NCBI GenBank assembly: GCA_025927495.1
Contig: JAICLH010000005.1
Coordinates: forward strand, 1 to 41,419
From: Gemmatimonadaceae bacterium
GTDB lineage: Bacteria; Gemmatimonadota; Gemmatimonadetes; Gemmatimonadales; Gemmatimonadaceae
Direction: 5' to 3'
DNA: 41,419 nt
Numbering within the stretch: position 1 is the first letter of the stretch; each line of letters opens with the position of its first letter. The notes below the pieces were generated by a model that did no database searches, was not told the origin of the DNA, and was given only the letters and a program-made list of their open reading frames with translations. Shown here one piece after another: positions 1 to 8,075 of this stretch. Made by a program: the position numbers and the translations under genes.

Positions 1-56
1 ATTTCGACATCCGGAGGCAGGTGTCGCGCGCAACATCGGGACCCGCCTCACGACTC

Positions 57-99
57 ATCAGGGAATAGCTACCTACTTTGTAGGCAGTTATTCCCTGAT
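57..99. repeat. Long imperfect hairpin beyond the DoxX gene
   Basis: Two 20-base arms (57-76 and 80-99) are complementary except at two positions and are separated by a TTT loop. The hairpin begins 14 bases beyond the stop of the minus-strand DoxX-type gene. It could end that transcript, but no T-run follows on either strand, so it is not a standard intrinsic terminator. It is AT-richer than its surroundings. It might also be one copy of a dispersed palindromic repeat, but I saw no second copy in the window. Confidence 0.6.
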
Positions 100-113
100 A
101 CGCCCTCCCACAC

Positions 114-584
114 CTACCGCGCCTCGAGCGGCACCCGCGCCACTAGCATCGCGCGATACGACGCGCGATACGTGATCGCCAGGTGGAGCTCCAGCACAAA
201 CACGATCGCCGCAATGACGGCGCCCGCGGGCAGGAGGAACGCGTGGAACGCCACGATGTTCACGATCACCGGCGCCAGCAGCGCCAGCGCCAGCGGAACG
301 TAGCGGTTCACGAGCAGCAACGCGCCGGCCAGCAGCTGCGTGCCCGCGATCAGCTGCAGCATGTACCCCGTCTGCATCAACGCCACGAAGAAATCCATTG
401 CGCCTTTGGGCAGCGACCCAGGCGTAGGCTGCGGCATGAAGTTCAGGAAGCCGTTGAGCCCCGCAAAGGCGAAGGTCAAGCCGAGGAGCGAGCGTGACAC
501 AGCAGGCAGCCGGCGGACGAGAGCACGCGATACACGGCGGCTGGTCGCGACCTCGACGCGGGGGGACAGGGCGATGGCGGTCAT
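114..584 (-). CDS. DoxX-type four-helix membrane protein
   Basis: A 156-residue membrane protein. After a basic N-terminus of about 30 residues come four hydrophobic segments at roughly 31-50, 73-92, 95-113 and 116-138. The first holds the FAFAGLNGFLNFM stretch, and the segment around QLIAGTQLLAGALLL also resembles DoxX/DoxD-like proteins. Members are poorly characterised; some are tied to thiol or respiratory redox functions. No catalytic residues are evident. It lies 77 bases downstream of the glycosyltransferase on the same strand and may be cotranscribed with it. The start is the ATG at 584; MTA begins a conventional basic cytoplasmic tail. Family assignment rests on helix pattern and general resemblance. 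Confidence 0.7.
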   Translation of the reverse strand: MTAIALSPRVEVATSRRVSRALVRRLPAVSRSLLGLTFAFAGLNGFLNFMPQPTPGSLPKGAMDFFVALMQTGYMLQLIAGTQLLAGALLLVNRYVPLALALLAPVIVNIVAFHAFLLPAGAVIAAIVFVLELHLAITYRASYRAMLVARVPLEAR

Positions 585-661
585 GGCGTGCCTCCAGATT
601 CGAGTCGTGTGGTGATTGCTGCCTTCACCATCACGTCGAACGAGACAGCCTCAGATCGACA

Positions 662-1735
662 TCACTCCGAACTTGTCGCTATTCCAGATGATACAGCGGG
701 CTCGTCGGTCCGGAAGGTCCACAGGTCGTACTGCATCACGAGCCAGACGGCGAGGCACGGCACCTCTTTAAGGCCGAGGAGCGTCGAGAGTGCGAGCGAC
801 GTGCGCCACAGCGTCATCGGCGACGTCGCAAACCAGATCGCGACGCCCGTCACCGCGATCACGTACGACGGCCGCTCCGCCTGGTGGTTGAACAACACGA
901 CATACACGAGCAGCGAGCAGAGATACAATCGCAGGAAGCGTCCGTCCATCCATTCGCGCGGCCGCGCCACGAGCGGCGCGAGCAAAGCGATCGTGCCCGC
1001 GAGTTGCACCGGCCAGTTAGGCCACGACCCCGGCAGCGCGCGCGCCAACAGGCCCATCACCGACGCGCCGTGCGCCAGCGCATCGACCGACTCGACCGCG
1101 GCCCACCACCGGTACTCCTGCCGGAGCACCGCCATCGAGACCACGCCTAACGGAAGCAGCATGAGGACGACGCCGACGAGCACGAGCCGCCACGCGAACC
1201 GCCACCGCGTGCGATGCGGCAGCGCGAAGCTCACCGCCGCGAGCGGAAAAATCTTGATCGCGGTACCCAGGCCGATCGCGATCGCCGCGGCAGTGAGCCG
1301 CGACCGCTCGAGCGCGAGAAACGCGAACAGGATGAGCCCCGCCACGAGCGCGTTTGACTGCGACGCCTGCGCCGACACGAACACCTCCGGCAGCAGCACC
1401 AGCGCGGCGATCGCGGCCTCGCGCCGCGACAACACAGTGCCGACCGCCGCCAGCAACACCAACGCGTTCAACAGATCCCACGCGAGCAGCCCGATCGCCG
1501 GCGGCACGATCGCAAAGGGCGCGAAGAGCAGCGCGAACGTCGGACTGTACTTGAACAGATCGTAGCCCTGCGCCGGATCGGGCGCGTACAGATTGCGCTG
1601 CGCCAACAGATGCAGGAACGATTCGCGAAAAACGGGGAACGTCCAGTGATGATGCGGCGTGAACGTGCGCGTGTACCATGCGAACGCGGCCGCGGCCACG
1701 TACGCGACGATCAGCCACGGCATGATCGGCCGCAT
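662..1735 (-). CDS. GT87-type (DUF2029) polytopic glycosyltransferase
   Basis: An integral membrane protein of about 357 residues with many hydrophobic helices. The pattern resembles the polyprenyl-phosphate-sugar-dependent mannosyltransferases of GT87/DUF2029. Features include a short extracytoplasmic N-terminal part (FTPHHHW), DLFKYSPTFALLFAPFA after the first loop, SQSNALVAGLILFAF and GTAIKIFPL. Such enzymes move a sugar from a lipid carrier to an acceptor outside the membrane; donor and acceptor are unknown here. The frame is open upstream to 1939, but that extension overlaps csaA and lacks a hydrophobic start, so I chose the Met just before helix 1 (1735). Met codons at 1723 and 1789 are alternatives; the one at 1789 would overlap the csaA ATG back to back. 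Confidence 0.7.
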   Translation of the reverse strand: MRPIMPWLIVAYVAAAAFAWYTRTFTPHHHWTFPVFRESFLHLLAQRNLYAPDPAQGYDLFKYSPTFALLFAPFAIVPPAIGLLAWDLLNALVLLAAVGTVLSRREAAIAALVLLPEVFVSAQASQSNALVAGLILFAFLALERSRLTAAAIAIGLGTAIKIFPLAAVSFALPHRTRWRFAWRLVLVGVVLMLLPLGVVSMAVLRQEYRWWAAVESVDALAHGASVMGLLARALPGSWPNWPVQLAGTIALLAPLVARPREWMDGRFLRLYLCSLLVYVVLFNHQAERPSYVIAVTGVAIWFATSPMTLWRTSLALSTLLGLKEVPCLAVWLVMQYDLWTFRTDEPAVSSGIATSSE

Positions 1736-1787
1736 GATCGGCGTCGATGGGGTTGCCGCGACTGACGCGCGGCGCAAGCTTGTCGCC

Positions 1788-2120
1788 ATGGCAACCGTCG
1801 ATGACTTCCTCACGCTCGACATCCGCGTCGGCACCGTCGTCGCGGCCGAGCCGTTTCCAGAGGCGCGCAAACCGTCGATCAAATTGCGCGTCGACTTCGG
1901 CCCAGAGTTGGGCGTGAAGCGGTCCAGCGCCCAACTCACGGTGCACTATACACCCGAACAACTTATCGGACGACAAGTCGTCGCGGTTGTCAACTTTCCT
2001 TTGCGACGCATCGCCGGTTTCGAGAGCGAGGTGCTCGTACTAGGCGCTATGCCGACGGACCGCGACGTGATCTTGCTCGCCGTCGACCGACCAGTCGATG
2101 ACGGCACACGCATTGGGTAG
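1788..2120 (+). CDS. csaA: CsaA-type tRNA-binding-domain chaperone
   Basis: A 110-residue protein consisting of one OB-fold tRNA-binding domain, the usual size of CsaA. The start MATVDDFLTLDIRVGTV, the central KPSIKLRVDFGPELGVKRSS and the VVNFPLRRIAGFESEVLVLG segment match this family well. CsaA is a cytoplasmic homodimer reported to have chaperone and export-related activity in Bacillus; its tRNA role is less clear. The frame opens at 1659, but the family length and the conserved N-terminus put the start at the ATG at 1788. The Shine-Dalgarno sequence is weak. The gene is divergent from the glycosyltransferase. The next plus-strand terminator (2305-2336) is 185 bases downstream. Confidence 0.9.
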   Translation: MATVDDFLTLDIRVGTVVAAEPFPEARKPSIKLRVDFGPELGVKRSSAQLTVHYTPEQLIGRQVVAVVNFPLRRIAGFESEVLVLGAMPTDRDVILLAVDRPVDDGTRIG

Positions 2121-2152
2121 TGCCGTCGGGTACATATCATCCTTGACACGGA

Positions 2153-2180
2153 CTCGCGTGCGGGGTACTTGTTGAATCAT
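2153..2180 (+). promoter_or_regulatory. Candidate sigma-70 promoter of the Cys leader
   Basis: A perfect -35 box TTGACA lies at 2153-2158. After a 16-base spacer comes AATCAT (2175-2180), which matches the -10 consensus at four of six positions. Transcription would begin near 2186-2188, at or next to the ATG at 2188. The leader-peptide mRNA could therefore be leaderless. The -35 box is convincing and the -10 box is only fair. Confidence 0.45.
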
Positions 2181-2280
2181 GATGTTGATGATGACGCCGA
2201 CCCGCAGCGGTCAATGCATGTGCGCGTGTTGCCGGGCCGCCGATCGGTGGCCGGGCGGATTCGCGCGTAGTCGCTGCTGA
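2179..2280 (+). CDS. Short cysteine-rich leader peptide
   Basis: An open frame of up to 33 codons that I found by reading the gap before the rhodanese gene. It has four in-frame ATGs (2179, 2182, 2188, 2191) and ends at TGA 2278-2280. Residues 13-18, counted from 2179, read CMCACC, and a fifth Cys is the last residue. Cysteine is scarce in the surrounding proteins, so such a cluster is unusual. There is no good Shine-Dalgarno sequence; the promoter places the transcript start near 2188, so translation may be leaderless. A terminator hairpin starts 25 bases after the stop, and a sulfur operon follows. Leaderless polycysteine short ORFs are known attenuators of sulfur operons in mycobacteria. 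I infer the same role here. Confidence 0.6.
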   Translation: MMLMMTPTRSGQCMCACCRAADRWPGGFARSRC

Positions 2281-2309
2281 CGTCATCGTCGCATCGTGCG
2301 TTCCGGCCG
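2236..2309 (+). promoter_or_regulatory. Alternative RNA pairings of a putative Cys attenuator
   Basis: Three mutually exclusive pairings can be drawn. Hairpin 1:2 pairs GCCGCC (2236-2241) with GGTGGC (2246-2251) around a GATC loop. An antiterminator 2:3 pairs GGCCGG (2249-2254) with CCGGCC (2303-2308), with flanking G-U pairs. The terminator uses 2305-2315 as its left arm, so it cannot form together with 2:3. A ribosome stalled on the Cys codons at 2215-2232 would cover hairpin 1 and leave 2249 onward free. A ribosome reaching the stop codon would cover region 2. This is the logic of classical attenuation. It was derived by hand without energy calculation. Confidence 0.45.
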
Positions 2310-2336
2310 GCCGCTTGAAACAGCGGCCGGCCTTTT
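2305..2336 (+). terminator. Strong intrinsic terminator in the sulfur operon leader
   Basis: Perfect arms GGCCGGCCGC (2305-2314) and GCGGCCGGCC (2323-2332) can be extended by a T-A pair to 11 base pairs around a six-base loop. TTTT (2333-2336) follows directly. It sits 25 bases after the leader-peptide stop and 88 bases before the rhodanese start, so it would block the operon unless antitermination occurs. It could also simply end csaA transcripts. Confidence 0.85.
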
Positions 2337-2424
2337 CGTCTCCGGTGAGCCCGGCGCGCGAACCATCCGCCGCGCGCCGGCGTTCGTCACCAGGACCATT
2401 CACCTCGAGCACGAGGACCGACCC

Positions 2425-3330
2425 ATGGCCACCGCAACAGCTCCCGTAACGGCGCCGGACAAGACGATTCTCGCCAAGGGATACGTCCATCCGGAACTGC
2501 TGGTCTCCACTGATTGGCTCGCCGCCAATCTCGACAATCCGTCCATCCGCGTCATCGAAAGCGATGAGGACGTGCTGCTCTACGACATGGGCCACATTCC
2601 CAACGCGCAGAAAGTCGACTGGCATGCCGATCTCAACGATCCCATCGTGCGCGACTATGTCGATCGCGAGCATTTCCAGGAACTGCTTCGCTCGCGCGGC
2701 ATCGATGATTCCAAGACCGTGATCTTCTACGGTGACAAGAACAACTGGTGGGCGTGCTACGCCCTGTGGGTGTTCCGTCTTTTCGGCTTCGAGAACGCCC
2801 GCGTGCTGGACGGCGGCCGCGTGAAGTGGGAGCAGGAGGGACGCCGTTTGATCGCGGATGTGCCTCACTTCCAGCGAACCAACTACACGGCACCCGAGCG
2901 CAACGACGCGCCGATCCGTGCGTTCCGCGAGGAGACGCTCGAGCACGCGAAGGCGAAGCTGCCGCTCATCGACGTGCGCTCGCCCGATGAGTTCAGCGGA
3001 AAGAAGACGCACATGCCCGAGTATCCGCAGGAGGGCGTGCTGCGCGGCGGACACATCCCCGGCGCGAAGAACGTCCCGTGGGCACGCGCCGCGAATCCCG
3101 ACGGCACATTCAAGAGCGCCGACGAGCTGCGCGCCATTTACCAGAACGAAGCAGGGCTCAAGAAGGGCGACGACGTCATCGCGTACTGCCGCATTGGCGA
3201 GCGCTCGTCGCACACCTGGTTCGTGCTCACGTACCTGTTAGGCTACGACAAGGTGCGCAACTACGACGGAAGCTGGACGGAATGGGGCAACTCGGTCCGC
3301 CTGCCGATCGAGAAAGGAGCGGGCGCGTGA
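2425..3330 (+). CDS. Thiosulfate/3-mercaptopyruvate sulfurtransferase, two rhodanese domains
   Basis: A cytoplasmic rhodanese of 301 residues with two tandem domains. The N-terminal non-catalytic domain runs roughly from 15 to 150 ([23 protein letters not shown]). The C-terminal domain runs from about 170 to 295 ([25 protein letters not shown]). The active-site loop [11 protein letters not shown] carries the persulfide-forming Cys, in the form seen in actinobacterial CysA/SseA-type enzymes. It transfers sulfane sulfur from thiosulfate or mercaptopyruvate. The ATG at 2425 has GAGG about eight bases upstream; the frame is open to 2296, but that part crosses the terminator. It is the first gene of the Cys-leader operon and overlaps osmC by GTGA. 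No signal peptide is seen. Confidence 0.93.
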
Positions 3331-3773
3331 GCGAACCGAAGGCGGGCACGGCGGCGGCCGTCGTGAAGCACAAACCGAACCGCGTCGAGCTCGTATGGCA
3401 CGCGGATCACCGCTTCACGGCCGGCCGCCCCGGCGGCCCAACGCTCCCCATCGATGGCGACGGCCTAACGGCCCCCGGCCCCGTGGACGCCATGCTGTCC
3501 GCACTGGCCGGGTGCGCCGCGGTGGACGTGATCGATATTCTGGCCAAACGACGCACGCCGATCCAGGCCTTTCGCGTCGAGGTCGTAGGCACGCGCGTCG
3601 AGACCATACCGCGCCGCTTGACCCACGTGCTCCTCCGCTTCTACATCACCGCCCAAGGACTCGATCGCGAGAACGCCGAGCGCGCCGTGCAGCTGTCAGT
3701 GGAGAAATATTGCTCGGTGCGCTCGTCGCTCGACCGCGACATCCGGGTCGAGTGGGAGGTGGAGCTGCTCTAG
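3327..3773 (+). CDS. OsmC/Ohr-family protein
   Basis: A 148-residue OsmC-like protein. The two family cysteines are in [11 protein letters not shown] (about residue 67) and [12 protein letters not shown] (about residue 131). These form the peroxidatic and resolving thiol pair that reduces organic hydroperoxides; in YhfA-type relatives the role is less clear. The GTG start overlaps the rhodanese stop (GTGA) and has AAGGAG seven bases upstream, so translation is coupled. Lying between a sulfurtransferase and cysteine synthase, it may protect or process reactive sulfur species rather than act as a general stress enzyme; that is inference. Confidence 0.9.
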
Positions 3774-3783
3774 GTCCGCCGCC

Positions 3784-4725
3784 ATGTCGACGATCGTGCA
3801 TCCCACCGTCTCATCCGCCATTGGCCGCACGCCGATGGTGCGGCTCGAGCGCGTCGTCGAGCCGGACATGGCCGAAGTCTGGGTCAAAATCGAAGGCATG
3901 AATCCGGGCGGCTCGATCAAGGACCGCACTGCGTTAGGCATGGTGGTCGACGCCGAGCAGCGCGGCCTGCTGGTGCCGGGCGGCACGATCGTCGAGCCGA
4001 CCTCGGGCAACACCGGCGTGGGCCTGGCGCAGGTTGCGGCCGCACGCGGCTATCGCCTCATCCTCTGCCTTCCCGCGCAGATGAGCGAGGAGCGCAAGCG
4101 CACGCTGCTCGCGTACGGCGCCGAGTTGGTGCTCACCGATCCCGAACGGCGCATGCTCGCGGCGATCGAAGAGGCCGAGCACATCCGCGACACCACGGGC
4201 GCCTGGATGCCTAACCAGTTCTCGAACCCGGCCAACCCGCGCATCCACTACGAGACCACCGGGCCGGAGATCTGGGAGCAGATGCACGGCCGCATCGACG
4301 CGTTCGTGTACGGCTCCGGCACGGGCGGCACGATCAGCGGGGTCGGCCGGTTCCTCAAGGAGCACGACGCCACGATTCAAGTGATCACCGTCGAACCCGC
4401 GCGATCCGCTGTGTTGAGCGGCGGGACGCGCGGCGAGCATCGATTCCAGGGCATGGGTCCAGGATTCATCCCCGACAACCTGGACCGATCGGTGATCGAC
4501 CGCGTGGTTACCGCGTGGGAGGAAGACGCGTTTCCACTCGCGCGCCGCCTCGCGCGCGAGGAAGGTTTGTTCGTCGGGATGTCGAGCGGAGCGATCGCGT
4601 TCTGGGCGCTCCGCGTCGCGCGGAAGCTCGGTCCCGGAAAGCGCGTCGCGATGATCGCGCCGGACTCCGGCGCGCGCTACCTGTCCACCGCGCTGTTCAG
4701 CGAAGAGAGCGCCGCCTCGCCCTGA
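3784..4725 (+). CDS. cysK: Cysteine synthase (O-acetylserine sulfhydrylase family)
   Basis: A PLP-dependent beta-replacement enzyme of 313 residues. NPGGSIKDRTA holds the Schiff-base lysine (about residue 46), SGNTGVGLA binds the substrate carboxylate, and GSGTGGTISGVGRFL binds the PLP phosphate. GMGPGFIP and GMSSGAI are also typical of CysK. It makes cysteine from O-acetylserine and sulfide; some relatives accept thiosulfate or phosphoserine. It starts 10 bases after osmC and ends the operon. With rhodanese upstream, sulfur from thiosulfate could be fed directly to it. CysM or cystathionine beta-synthase-type activity cannot be excluded from sequence alone. Confidence 0.93.
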   Translation: MSTIVHPTVSSAIGRTPMVRLERVVEPDMAEVWVKIEGMNPGGSIKDRTALGMVVDAEQRGLLVPGGTIVEPTSGNTGVGLAQVAAARGYRLILCLPAQMSEERKRTLLAYGAELVLTDPERRMLAAIEEAEHIRDTTGAWMPNQFSNPANPRIHYETTGPEIWEQMHGRIDAFVYGSGTGGTISGVGRFLKEHDATIQVITVEPARSAVLSGGTRGEHRFQGMGPGFIPDNLDRSVIDRVVTAWEEDAFPLARRLAREEGLFVGMSSGAIAFWALRVARKLGPGKRVAMIAPDSGARYLSTALFSEESAASP

Positions 4726-4732
4726 CGGCGCC

Positions 4733-4748
4733 GCCGGTACACACCGGC
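4733..4748. terminator. Weak hairpin between convergent cysK and anti-sigma genes
   Basis: GCCGGT (4733-4738) and ACCGGC (4743-4748) pair perfectly around an ACAC loop in the 29-base gap between convergent genes. No clear T-run follows on either strand. It may serve as a bidirectional terminator, but the support is mainly positional. Confidence 0.3.
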
Positions 4749-4754
4749 CTTCCG

Positions 4755-5021
4755 TTAGACTTCGAGCCCCGCCTTACGGAGTTTGGCGAGCACCTTCCGC
4801 CGCACCATGTTCGGCGCGGGATGCTCTCGCCGCGTCGCGGCCAGCGCCTCCAGAAAGGTCCGCTCGAAGTCGAACTGGGGATAGCACTGCTTGCACTGCG
4901 CGAGATGCGCACGGATCGCGTCCATCGACTCGTCCGTGAGCTCGCCATCGAGGTAGTCCCAGAGTTGTCGAACGACATCGTAACAATCCATCGCGACCGT
5001 CTGTGTCACGGTGAGGTACAT
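4755..5021 (-). CDS. RsrA-like zinc anti-sigma factor
   Basis: An 88-residue cytoplasmic protein with the ZAS zinc-binding set: an early Cys (MDCYDV), then HLAQCKQC giving His-x3-Cys-x2-Cys. The segment WDYLDGEL between them matches RsrA-type anti-sigma factors. In that family zinc and thiols hold the sigma factor; disulfide stress ejects zinc and frees it. The ATG at 5021 follows the sigma stop by one base (TGACATG) and has GAGGTG just upstream, so it is coupled to the sigma gene. An internal Met at 4991 is possible. It has no membrane segment, which fits a cytoplasmic redox sensor. Confidence 0.85.
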   Translation of the reverse strand: MYLTVTQTVAMDCYDVVRQLWDYLDGELTDESMDAIRAHLAQCKQCYPQFDFERTFLEALAATRREHPAPNMVRRKVLAKLRKAGLEV

Positions 5022-5022
5022 G

Positions 5023-5622
5023 TCACACCTCGCACGAAGCCTGCGCGGTGAGTCCCGCGTCGCGTCCAAATATCACGAGCGCTTCCTGCAGCAATCGCCG
5101 TCCGCGGAAGAGACGCGACCGGATGGTTCCGACCGGCACGCCAAGCACGGACGCTGCTTCATTGTATGCCATTCCTTCGACATCGACGAGCACGACCGCC
5201 GACCGGAAGACCTCCGGCAATTCTCCGATCGCGCGCTCGAGCGCAGGTCCCAGATCGACTCGGCTCAGAACGTCGGCATGTTCTGCGATTGAGCCGACGC
5301 TTTCCTGCGCCGATGCCAACGCTTCGAGCTGCGCGTCATCACCGCCGTAATCCACACGACGGCGTTCTCGTTCCCGAAGTCGCAAAAAAACATTGCGACA
5401 GATGGTAAATAGCCATTTGCGGCACTCGCTGCCGGGCTCGAAGGTGTGCCACGACCGGTAGGCGCGGAGAAAAGTCTCCTGGACCACGTCGTCGGCGTCG
5501 GACTCATCGCGCGTCATGGACAGCGCGAAGCGGTACACGTCGTCGAGCCAGGGCAATGCTTCAACCTCAAAGCGTCTGGTCGCGACGCGGTCGGGCTCGG
5601 CCGAGGAAATCGTTCCGGTCAT
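5023..5622 (-). CDS. ECF sigma factor, SigR/RpoE-like
   Basis: A 199-residue ECF sigma factor. Region 2 includes YRFALSMTRDESDADDVVQETFLRAY (read at about residues 30-55, with the core DADDVVQETF). Region 4 ends with EGMAYNEAASVLGVPVGTI, a helix-turn-helix, then RSRLFRGRRLLQ. It directs RNA polymerase to stress promoters and is presumably held by the downstream zinc anti-sigma factor. The chosen ATG at 5622 has GAGG nine bases upstream. The frame is open for another 34 codons to an ATG at 5724; that extension contains CRCCC and recalls the longer unstable SigR isoform of Streptomyces. Its target promoters are unknown. Confidence 0.92.
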   Translation of the reverse strand: MTGTISSAEPDRVATRRFEVEALPWLDDVYRFALSMTRDESDADDVVQETFLRAYRSWHTFEPGSECRKWLFTICRNVFLRLRERERRRVDYGGDDAQLEALASAQESVGSIAEHADVLSRVDLGPALERAIGELPEVFRSAVVLVDVEGMAYNEAASVLGVPVGTIRSRLFRGRRLLQEALVIFGRDAGLTAQASCEV

Positions 5623-6111: not shown

Positions 6112-7020
6112 GTGCACGTAACGCTTCTGGGAACCGCAGCCGGCGGCGGATTCCCACAATGGAACTGCTGGTGTCCGTCCTGCCGCACCGCGCGCGAGGC
6201 GCCTGATCGCGCGCACGCCCGCACGCAGTCGTCCGTCGCCGTGAGTGCCGACGGAGTGCGGTGGTTCCTGCTGGATGCGTCGCCCGACGTGCGCGACCAG
6301 ATCGCGACGCTGCCCACGGCGCGGACCACCGAAACGCGCCACGTGCCGATCGAGGGCATCGTGCTCACCGACGCCGAGCTCGATCACACGTTAGGCATCG
6401 AACTGTTGCGCGAGGGACGCGCGCTGCACCTGTACGCGACTGCTTCCGTGTTCGGCACGCTCGAGCGCGACTCGCGCGTGCTGCCGGTGACGCGCGCGTT
6501 CGCGTGCGTCGACGTCACGGTGCTCGAGCCGGATGGCGTGCCCGCCCCGCTCCGCTATCGCGATGGAGCGCCGAGCGGCTTGTCCGTTCAGGCGTTCGAC
6601 GTGGCGGGAGACCCGCCGCGGTTCGCGTCGCTCAACGAGCCCGGTCACACCGTGGGTCTCGTCGTCCACGATGGCGCCACCGGCGGGACGTGCGCGTTCG
6701 TCCCCGGCTGCGCCGACCTCGACGACGCCGTCGCCGCCCGACTCTCGGGCGCGGACGTTGCGCTGTTCGACGGCACGTTCTTCACCGACGACGAACCCCA
6801 GCGATTTGGCCTGGGCGACCGCACCGCGACCCAGATGGGACATGCGCCCATCGGCGGCGGCGGCACGCTCACCCGGTTCGCGGGGCTCGCCTGCCGGCAC
6901 AAGGTGTACACACACATCAACAACACCAATCTCGTCCTGCTCGAAGATTCGCTGGAGCGTCGCGCCGTCGAGCGCGCCGGCGTGGTGGTGGGACGGGATG
7001 GCATGACGTTTCAGATCTGA
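6112..7020 (+). CDS. pqqB: PQQ biosynthesis protein PqqB
   Basis: A 302-residue metallo-beta-lactamase-fold protein beginning HVTLLGTAAGGGFPQWNC. NCWCPSCR supplies the CxCxxC structural zinc site, and LTDAELDHTLGI is the PqqB form of the metal-binding loop. PqqB hydroxylates the PQQ precursor tyrosine moiety late in the pathway. The start is GTG at 6112; the conserved N-terminus leaves no room for a downstream start. It is followed three bases later by pqqC. Confidence 0.95.
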   Translation: MHVTLLGTAAGGGFPQWNCWCPSCRTAREAPDRAHARTQSSVAVSADGVRWFLLDASPDVRDQIATLPTARTTETRHVPIEGIVLTDAELDHTLGIELLREGRALHLYATASVFGTLERDSRVLPVTRAFACVDVTVLEPDGVPAPLRYRDGAPSGLSVQAFDVAGDPPRFASLNEPGHTVGLVVHDGATGGTCAFVPGCADLDDAVAARLSGADVALFDGTFFTDDEPQRFGLGDRTATQMGHAPIGGGGTLTRFAGLACRHKVYTHINNTNLVLLEDSLERRAVERAGVVVGRDGMTFQI

Positions 7021-7022
7021 AC

Positions 7023-7772
7023 ATGGCCGCTTCGTCGTTGTCCACGATCTCGGCACCGCCGCCTCCGCCCATCCCGCGGCTCGAGCGGCCGCTCACGCCT
7101 AACGAGCTGGCGGACGCGCTGCGCGCTTTCCACTCGTCGTACTACGTGGAGCACCCGTTTCATCGGATGATGCACGACGGCCAGCTCACGCGGCGCCAGC
7201 TCCAAGGCTGGGCGGCCAACCGCCTCTGCTACCAGCGGGCCGTGCCGCGCAAAGACGGCGCGATTCTGTCCAACTGCCCCGTGCCGGCCGTGCGCCGTCA
7301 GTGGATCCAGCGGCTCATCGACCACGACGGCACGCGGGAGGGTGAAGGCGGCATCGAGAAGTGGATTCAGTTAGGCGTAGGGTTGGGGCTGACGCGGGAG
7401 GAGCTGGAGGACGAGCGCCACGTGCTGCCCGGCGTGCGCTTTGCCACCGAGGCGTACGTGACGTTCTGCAAGACCAAGCCGTGGGTGGACGCGGTGGCCG
7501 CGTCGCTCACCGAACTTTTCGCGCCCGACATCATGCGACGCCGCCTCGCGTCGATGCCCACGAACTATCCGTGGATCGAGCCCGACGCCTACGCCTACTT
7601 CGAGAGCCGCCTCACGCAAGCGCCGCGTGACAGCGCCGAAGGGCTCGCGATCGTCACCGCGTACTGCACCACGGTCGAGATGCAGCAGCGTGCGTTCGAA
7701 GCGCTGCGGTTCAAGATCGAGATGCTGTGGGCGATGATCGACACGATTTATCACGCCTACCGGGACGAGTGA
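7023..7772 (+). CDS. pqqC: Pyrroloquinoline-quinone synthase PqqC
   Basis: A 249-residue cofactorless oxidase of the TENA/THI-4-like all-helical fold that closes the ring and performs the final eight-electron oxidation of PQQ. Recognisable parts are HPFHRMMHDGQLTRRQLQGW, NRLCYQRAVPRKDGAIL, IDHDGT and FESRLTQAPRD. The proline-rich first 20 residues are a variable tail. The ATG at 7023 follows the pqqB stop by two bases. It is near the family's usual length of about 250 residues. Confidence 0.96.
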   Translation: MAASSLSTISAPPPPPIPRLERPLTPNELADALRAFHSSYYVEHPFHRMMHDGQLTRRQLQGWAANRLCYQRAVPRKDGAILSNCPVPAVRRQWIQRLIDHDGTREGEGGIEKWIQLGVGLGLTREELEDERHVLPGVRFATEAYVTFCKTKPWVDAVAASLTELFAPDIMRRRLASMPTNYPWIEPDAYAYFESRLTQAPRDSAEGLAIVTAYCTTVEMQQRAFEALRFKIEMLWAMIDTIYHAYRDE

Positions 7773-7775
7773 ACC

Positions 7776-8074
7776 ATGGCGTTCAGCGGCGGCACGCGGC
7801 CCAAGCTGTGGCGGTTCGCCCGGGTCGATTTCGACCCGGTGCGGCAGCGCCGCGTGCTGCTCTATCCCGAAGGGGCGATCCTGCTCAACGACACCGCGGC
7901 CGAGATCCTCGCGCTGTGCGACGGCGACCGGACGATCGATGAGATCGCCGCCGCGTTGGGCGAGCGCTACGCGGCGGACGTGCGCGCGGACGTGCTCGAC
8001 TATCTGCATAAGTTAGGCGAGCGCGAGCTCGTCCGCGACGCTGCCGCGCCACCCTCCGTCCAGACGCCGCCGTG

Positions 8075-8075
<1 letters not shown>
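7776..8075 (+). CDS. pqqD: PqqA-binding chaperone PqqD
   Basis: A 99-residue RiPP recognition element. RRVLLYPEGAILLNDTAAEIL, quoted here only as the core LLYPEGAILLNDTA, and CDGDRTIDEIAAAL are typical of PqqD. It binds PqqA and presents it to the radical-SAM enzyme PqqE, which is not encoded nearby. It starts three bases after pqqC and overlaps the first M16 gene by one base (TGATG). The Pro-rich tail is not conserved in the family. Confidence 0.94.

Follow-up and report, generated by a model that had tools for sequence, protein, structure and literature searches.

The leader upstream of the rhodanese-OsmC-CysK operon in this Gemmatimonadaceae DNA is very probably a cysteine-responsive, ribosome-mediated transcription attenuator. 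The window is the whole stretch of 41,419 nucleotides that was analysed, and the features described in it lie on its forward strand. The first gene of the operon (2425–3330) encodes a two-domain rhodanese of the thiosulfate/3-mercaptopyruvate sulfurtransferase (TST) family, which matches the Pfam Rhodanese profile in two stretches (1.6e-34) and the NCBIfam mercaptopyruvate sulfurtransferase profile below its cut-off (3.6e-34). It overlaps by 4 bases the second gene (3327–3773), which encodes an OsmC-family protein (Pfam OsmC, 4.9e-17), and the third gene (3784–4725) encodes the cysteine synthase CysK (NCBIfam TIGR01139 cysK, 432.6 bits, above the cut-off). These profile matches bear out the three sulfur genes named in an earlier sequence-only reading of this DNA, whose attenuator interpretation is well supported by the present analysis, with the cysteine response and the transcript start as predictions. 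The leader sits between the rhodanese gene and a csaA-like gene directly 5' of it. As a whole it folds 6 standard deviations better than shuffled sequences, and the window gave no matches at curated score to Rfam families (T-box, SAM, and other riboswitches). Putative pqqB-, pqqC-, and pqqD-like genes from the list of ORFs lie further along the window (6112–8075). In four loci from another Gemmatimonadota family (L160, L178, L189, and L198) an IscU/NifU-like scaffold gene follows the rhodanese gene instead of OsmC and CysK. The putatively controlled genes fit cysteine control: they comprise TST with CysK here and, in relatives, TST with partner genes that we take, by eye and from sequence, to be IscU/NifU-like or SufE-like.

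The promoter (2143–2171) comprises the -35 hexamer TTGACA (2143–2148), which had been noticed before, a 17-nt spacer, and the -10-like hexamer TACTTG (2166–2171), although a strict sigma-70 scan (at least four of six matches per hexamer and T at -10 position 6) does not list it. The distance from TACTTG to the ATG at 2179 is 7 nt, and there is no Shine-Dalgarno sequence before this ATG. In the five same-genus loci (the window and L082–L085) the hexamers are near-identical, and the 7-nt distance from the -10 element to the ATG is found in every one. The transcript start is predicted at or adjoining the ATG, so that initiation on the leader would be leaderless. Promoters of the leaderless type are over-represented in this genome, with 19 matches to the pattern as compared with 3 in the reversed control. 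Further promoters of this type in the genome (L208, L226, L215, and L221) precede genes that resemble citrate synthase (two genes), pyrE, and BioF/KBL. Leaderlessness is not universal among the leaders: five loci (L104, L141, L152, L111, and L113) have a Cys leader and a terminator with another promoter or promoter distance, and L104 and L152 have a short 5' leader in place of the leaderless start.

The leader-peptide ORF (2179–2280, predicted to be leaderless) has 33 codons, reading MMLMMTPTRSGQCMCACCRAADRWPGGFARSRC, and the stop codon TGA at 2278–2280. Four putatively regulatory Cys codons, at 2215, 2221, 2227, and 2230, make up the sequence CMCACC (2215–2232), and a fifth, at 2275, is directly 5' of the TGA, as the sequence-only reading had described. 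The ORF continues for 48 nt past the cluster, and in most leaders the last cluster Cys is 45–57 nt from the stop. The ORF is kept in L082–L085, and its design recurs in 20 further loci. All five same-genus loci have the Cys cluster, which reads CACC, CMCACCC, CMCACC, and CPCSMVCMMCC in L082–L085. Across these peptides a cluster is retained, neighbouring residues vary, and the N-terminal part varies freely.

Three RNA helices can be drawn in the leader. The intrinsic terminator (2305–2340) is an 11-bp GC hairpin (2305–2332) followed by TTTTCGTC, with the TTTT run that had been pointed out earlier; no other terminator-like site in positions 1–5400 is as strong. Two compensatory double changes occur in it among the five same-genus sequences, and all of its alignment cells are paired. 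Hairpin 1:2 was located from the letters at 2236–2251; the hairpin exists, but it is larger, extending over 2232–2255 with a core of 2235–2241 paired with 2246–2252, and it pairs the antiterminator arm away. It is paired in 97.8% of cells, and the changes in it are one-sided but neutral for pairing (C-G to U-G and G-U to A-U). The antiterminator arm of region 2 (2244–2259) lies around GGTGGCCGGGCGGA, within Trp-Pro-Gly-Gly codons, and its partner in region 3 (2302–2318) overlaps the 5' arm of the terminator. Here too the pairing originally proposed, 2249–2254 with 2303–2308, is real but extends well past 6 bp. GGTGGCCGGGCGGA, whose complement lies in the terminator, is invariant at every codon position in all five same-genus loci, in a block of 14 nt. 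The antiterminator has an energy of -28.6 kcal/mol and a z score of -3.05 relative to shuffled arms in the window, and z scores of -3.3 to -3.8 in three same-genus loci (L082, L083, and L085). L084 gave a different score, since an additional Cys codon within region 1 shifted the tested edge. Over 19 loci, which include related and thus not fully independent ones, the combined Fisher p value is ~1e-6. The antiterminator is paired in 94.7% of cells and is mostly invariant within the genus; therefore covariation, which the sequence-only reading had proposed to test in both pairings, lends it little independent support. The 5' end of the leader (2179–2196) is strongly complementary to the post-stop segment 2281–2297 in the window and could mask the start codon. 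This pairing was rejected as a general element, with z near 0 in most loci and a combined p of 0.007 that comes from a few.

From this arrangement we infer how the switch would operate. RNA polymerase would start at the leader ATG, and a ribosome would initiate there without a Shine-Dalgarno sequence. When charged tRNA-Cys is scarce, the ribosome would stall at CMCACC and cover the 5' arm of hairpin 1:2; segment 2244–2259, now free, would pair with 2302–2318 once this had been transcribed, the terminator would not form, and the operon would be read through. With ample cysteine, the ribosome would reach the stop codon, region 2 would be paired or covered, the 2305–2332 terminator would form, and transcription would stop. 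When folding was limited to the window RNA that a ribosome would leave free, at the point where region 3 has just been synthesised, region 3 was expected to form 9.6 pairs with upstream RNA if the ribosome was on a Cys codon and 2.6 if it was at the stop, and the direction is the same in most loci. Part of this contrast is trivial because less RNA is free with the ribosome at the stop, and the shuffle test is better evidence. At equilibrium the full leader of the window still favours the terminator with a stalled ribosome (8.7–10.8 of its 11 pairs), and therefore the switch must depend on co-transcriptional order. Such a dependence is normal for classical attenuators.

Conservation in relatives had been set beforehand as a check on the attenuator interpretation, which came through it. 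In the five-genome same-genus sample, the four relatives that have the operon (L082–L085, rhodanese 85–95% identical) all keep the promoter, the leader frame with its Cys codons and spacing, the stop, the terminator, the antiterminator, and the operon. More widely, 207 loci with a homologous rhodanese gene were searched, in the region upstream of that gene, for a joint pattern of TTGAC, 16–19 nt, TA----, 5–8 nt, a start codon, and an ORF of 8–50 amino acids. The pattern was found in 25, in all of which the ORF has at least two Cys codons, and was absent from the reverse complements (0/207), further-upstream regions (0/196), and intragenic regions (0/207) used as controls. Roughly one homologous rhodanese locus in ten, and no more, has a version of the leaderless type. 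An automatic search placed a U-tailed hairpin 16–41 nt past the stop in 21 of the 25 leaders, and in the remaining four (L025, L106, L160, and L161) a GC hairpin is visible by eye, but its U tract is weaker. A scan for Cys clusters without the promoter barely exceeded its controls (17 as compared with 11 and 7). Cys clusters alone are not rare, and therefore the evidence is their combination with the promoter and with conservation. On the rhodanese tree the leader-bearing loci are clustered, with 10 changes as compared with 23.8 after shuffling; at least 6 changes are forced, which implies repeated gain or loss of the element. The close neighbours L112, L157, L169, and L144 have no leader or terminator in the upstream stretch. 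Other Gemmatimonadota families also have the architecture, and it is sporadic in Chloroflexota, where such a leader is present in only 3 of 30 rhodanese loci (L227 and L288–L316), namely L302, L303, and L227 (the same locus as L014). In L302 and L303 the leaders before the rhodanese gene end in RCICIRRGR, with an extended structured region and a run of T. Among about 30 Mycobacteriales TST loci, a convincing Cys leader was found only in L251 and L256, both without a terminator.

A ribosome stalled in the Cys tract might instead expose the ribosome-binding site of the rhodanese gene, as in mycobacteria, with the GC hairpin incidental. There, a like uORF before a like gene is described as translation attenuation in PMC13236596 and PMC9031893, and in the window the rhodanese Shine-Dalgarno region is able to fold locally. 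However, this local stem (CTCG/CGAG) is lost in L085, a U-tailed hairpin with compensatory changes stands 3' of the ORF in nearly all leaders, and the conserved arm of the leader pairs with the terminator hairpin; we consider control at the ribosome-binding site very unlikely. Less likely again is an attenuation that is based on translation but in which Rho or the redox state, rather than charged tRNA-Cys, does the sensing. Rho-dependent control has been proposed for mycobacterial Cys leaders, where terminators are lacking (PMC1262725), and redox has been raised as a possible signal (PMC4633059), but the leader in the window has an intrinsic terminator and an antiterminator, and therefore Rho is not needed.

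The transcription attenuator proposed here has apparent counterparts before other genes. In relatives, sulfite/nitrite-reductase-like genes at four loci are preceded by a Cys leader and a terminator, the leaders reading MMHSAHLAMCCC... (L317), ...NCCCPKTC... (L319), and ...GCCCCCREC... (L321) or containing 12 Cys (L323). A scan of 60 relatives for the CC-leader pattern gave mostly chance matches, at about control numbers, and one true match, before sulfite reductase. The genome of the window itself has a Tyr leader of the leaderless type (MIRALRTPSYRYYYVPRPTGRERRRVRG, SYRYYYVP) and a terminator before a gene that we take, from its sequence, to encode phenylalanine-4-hydroxylase, the enzyme that makes tyrosine; the promoter and start codon of this leader (L224/L326) are at G000:C294:962–1000 on the minus strand. 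The Tyr leader is kept in three same-genus genomes, and YYY-type leaders are found in L331, L333, L334, and L335. Its antiterminator arm CCACGGG pairs with the terminator arm GGCCCGTGG, and this pairing is conserved in relatives; in L334 both sides have changed jointly, to CACACGGG with CCGTGTT. That codons and pathway appear to match in a second, independent operon of this genome offers strong indirect support for the mechanism. The least likely of the alternatives is that the promoter is constitutive, the ORF encodes a small protein rich in Cys (a peptide for metals or redox), and the terminator serves only to end the csaA transcript: a csaA-like gene does lie directly upstream and CMCACC-type motifs can bind metals, but Cys is all that the peptides have in common, what is invariant is a stretch of nucleotides that complements the terminator, leaders of this design also occur before sulfite reductase (with Cys) and phenylalanine hydroxylase (with Tyr), and the promoter is located between csaA and the terminator.

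On balance we favour the view that the attenuator of the window belongs to a Gemmatimonadota-wide, ribosome-sensed regulon that would combine leaderless leaders with intrinsic terminators and would respond through Cys codons (sulfurtransferase and sulfite reductase) and Tyr codons (phenylalanine hydroxylase). Its Cys part would be the transcription-level counterpart of the mycobacterial polycysteine system, through common descent or convergence. Operons that respond to cysteine and to tyrosine are predicted in this large, little-studied phylum of soil, and the leader allows a direct test of a switch in which the sensing ribosome would initiate on leaderless mRNA. A literature search on leader-peptide attenuation in Gemmatimonadota found no paper, and a cysteine leader attenuator is apparently undescribed in this phylum.

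Several known systems share parts of this design. In Actinobacteria, Cys leader peptides have been predicted from short ORFs that contain runs of Cys and stand 5' of cys or cbs genes (PMC1262725), to which L251 and L256 before TST correspond; unlike for the leader described here, no conserved terminator was found for them by the authors, and there is none in L251 or L256. The trpL attenuator RNA of Sinorhizobium meliloti is leaderless and runs from the ATG of the leader ORF to the terminator at its end (PMC7298713), as is predicted for the start here, but it senses tryptophan, encodes a 14-aa peptide, and belongs to Alphaproteobacteria, so that no sequence relation is expected. With the trp, his, and leu attenuators the leader shares a 1:2 hairpin and the spacing to the stall and stop positions, as well as a leader ORF with codons of the pathway (CMCACC before an operon with CysK), an intrinsic terminator between this ORF and the first gene, and a mutually exclusive antiterminator that a stalled ribosome would free; the last is present as a structure, and the kinetic switch is assumed. 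It differs from them in the amino acid sensed, which would be cysteine, and in a start predicted to lack a ribosome-binding site.

The closest known system is the mycobacterial leaderless polycysteine uORF. Canestrari et al. (2020; doi 10.1111/mmi.14498) reportedly showed cysteine-responsive attenuation by leaderless polycysteine short ORFs in mycobacteria. A mycobacterial uORF before cysA2 has been noted (PMC4633059), and the polycysteine uORFs are cited as translation attenuation in PMC13236596 and PMC9031893. Both systems have a uORF with Cys codons, leaderless in mycobacteria and predicted to be so here, before sulfur operons, including a homologous sulfurtransferase gene, and several such operons within one lineage; here the leaders precede TST-OsmC-CysK and, in relatives, sulfite reductase. 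The mycobacterial parallel drawn in the sequence-only reading is right in kind, but the mechanism probably differs. The mycobacterial system is described as translation control at the ribosome-binding site, with no conserved terminator and with Cys runs near the stop, whereas the leaders described here, in a different phylum, have a conserved intrinsic terminator and antiterminator and a Cys cluster about 50 nt before the stop, with one terminal Cys in the genus. The attenuator would extend cysteine sensing by leaderless uORFs beyond Actinobacteria to another phylum, with a different output, the termination of transcription.
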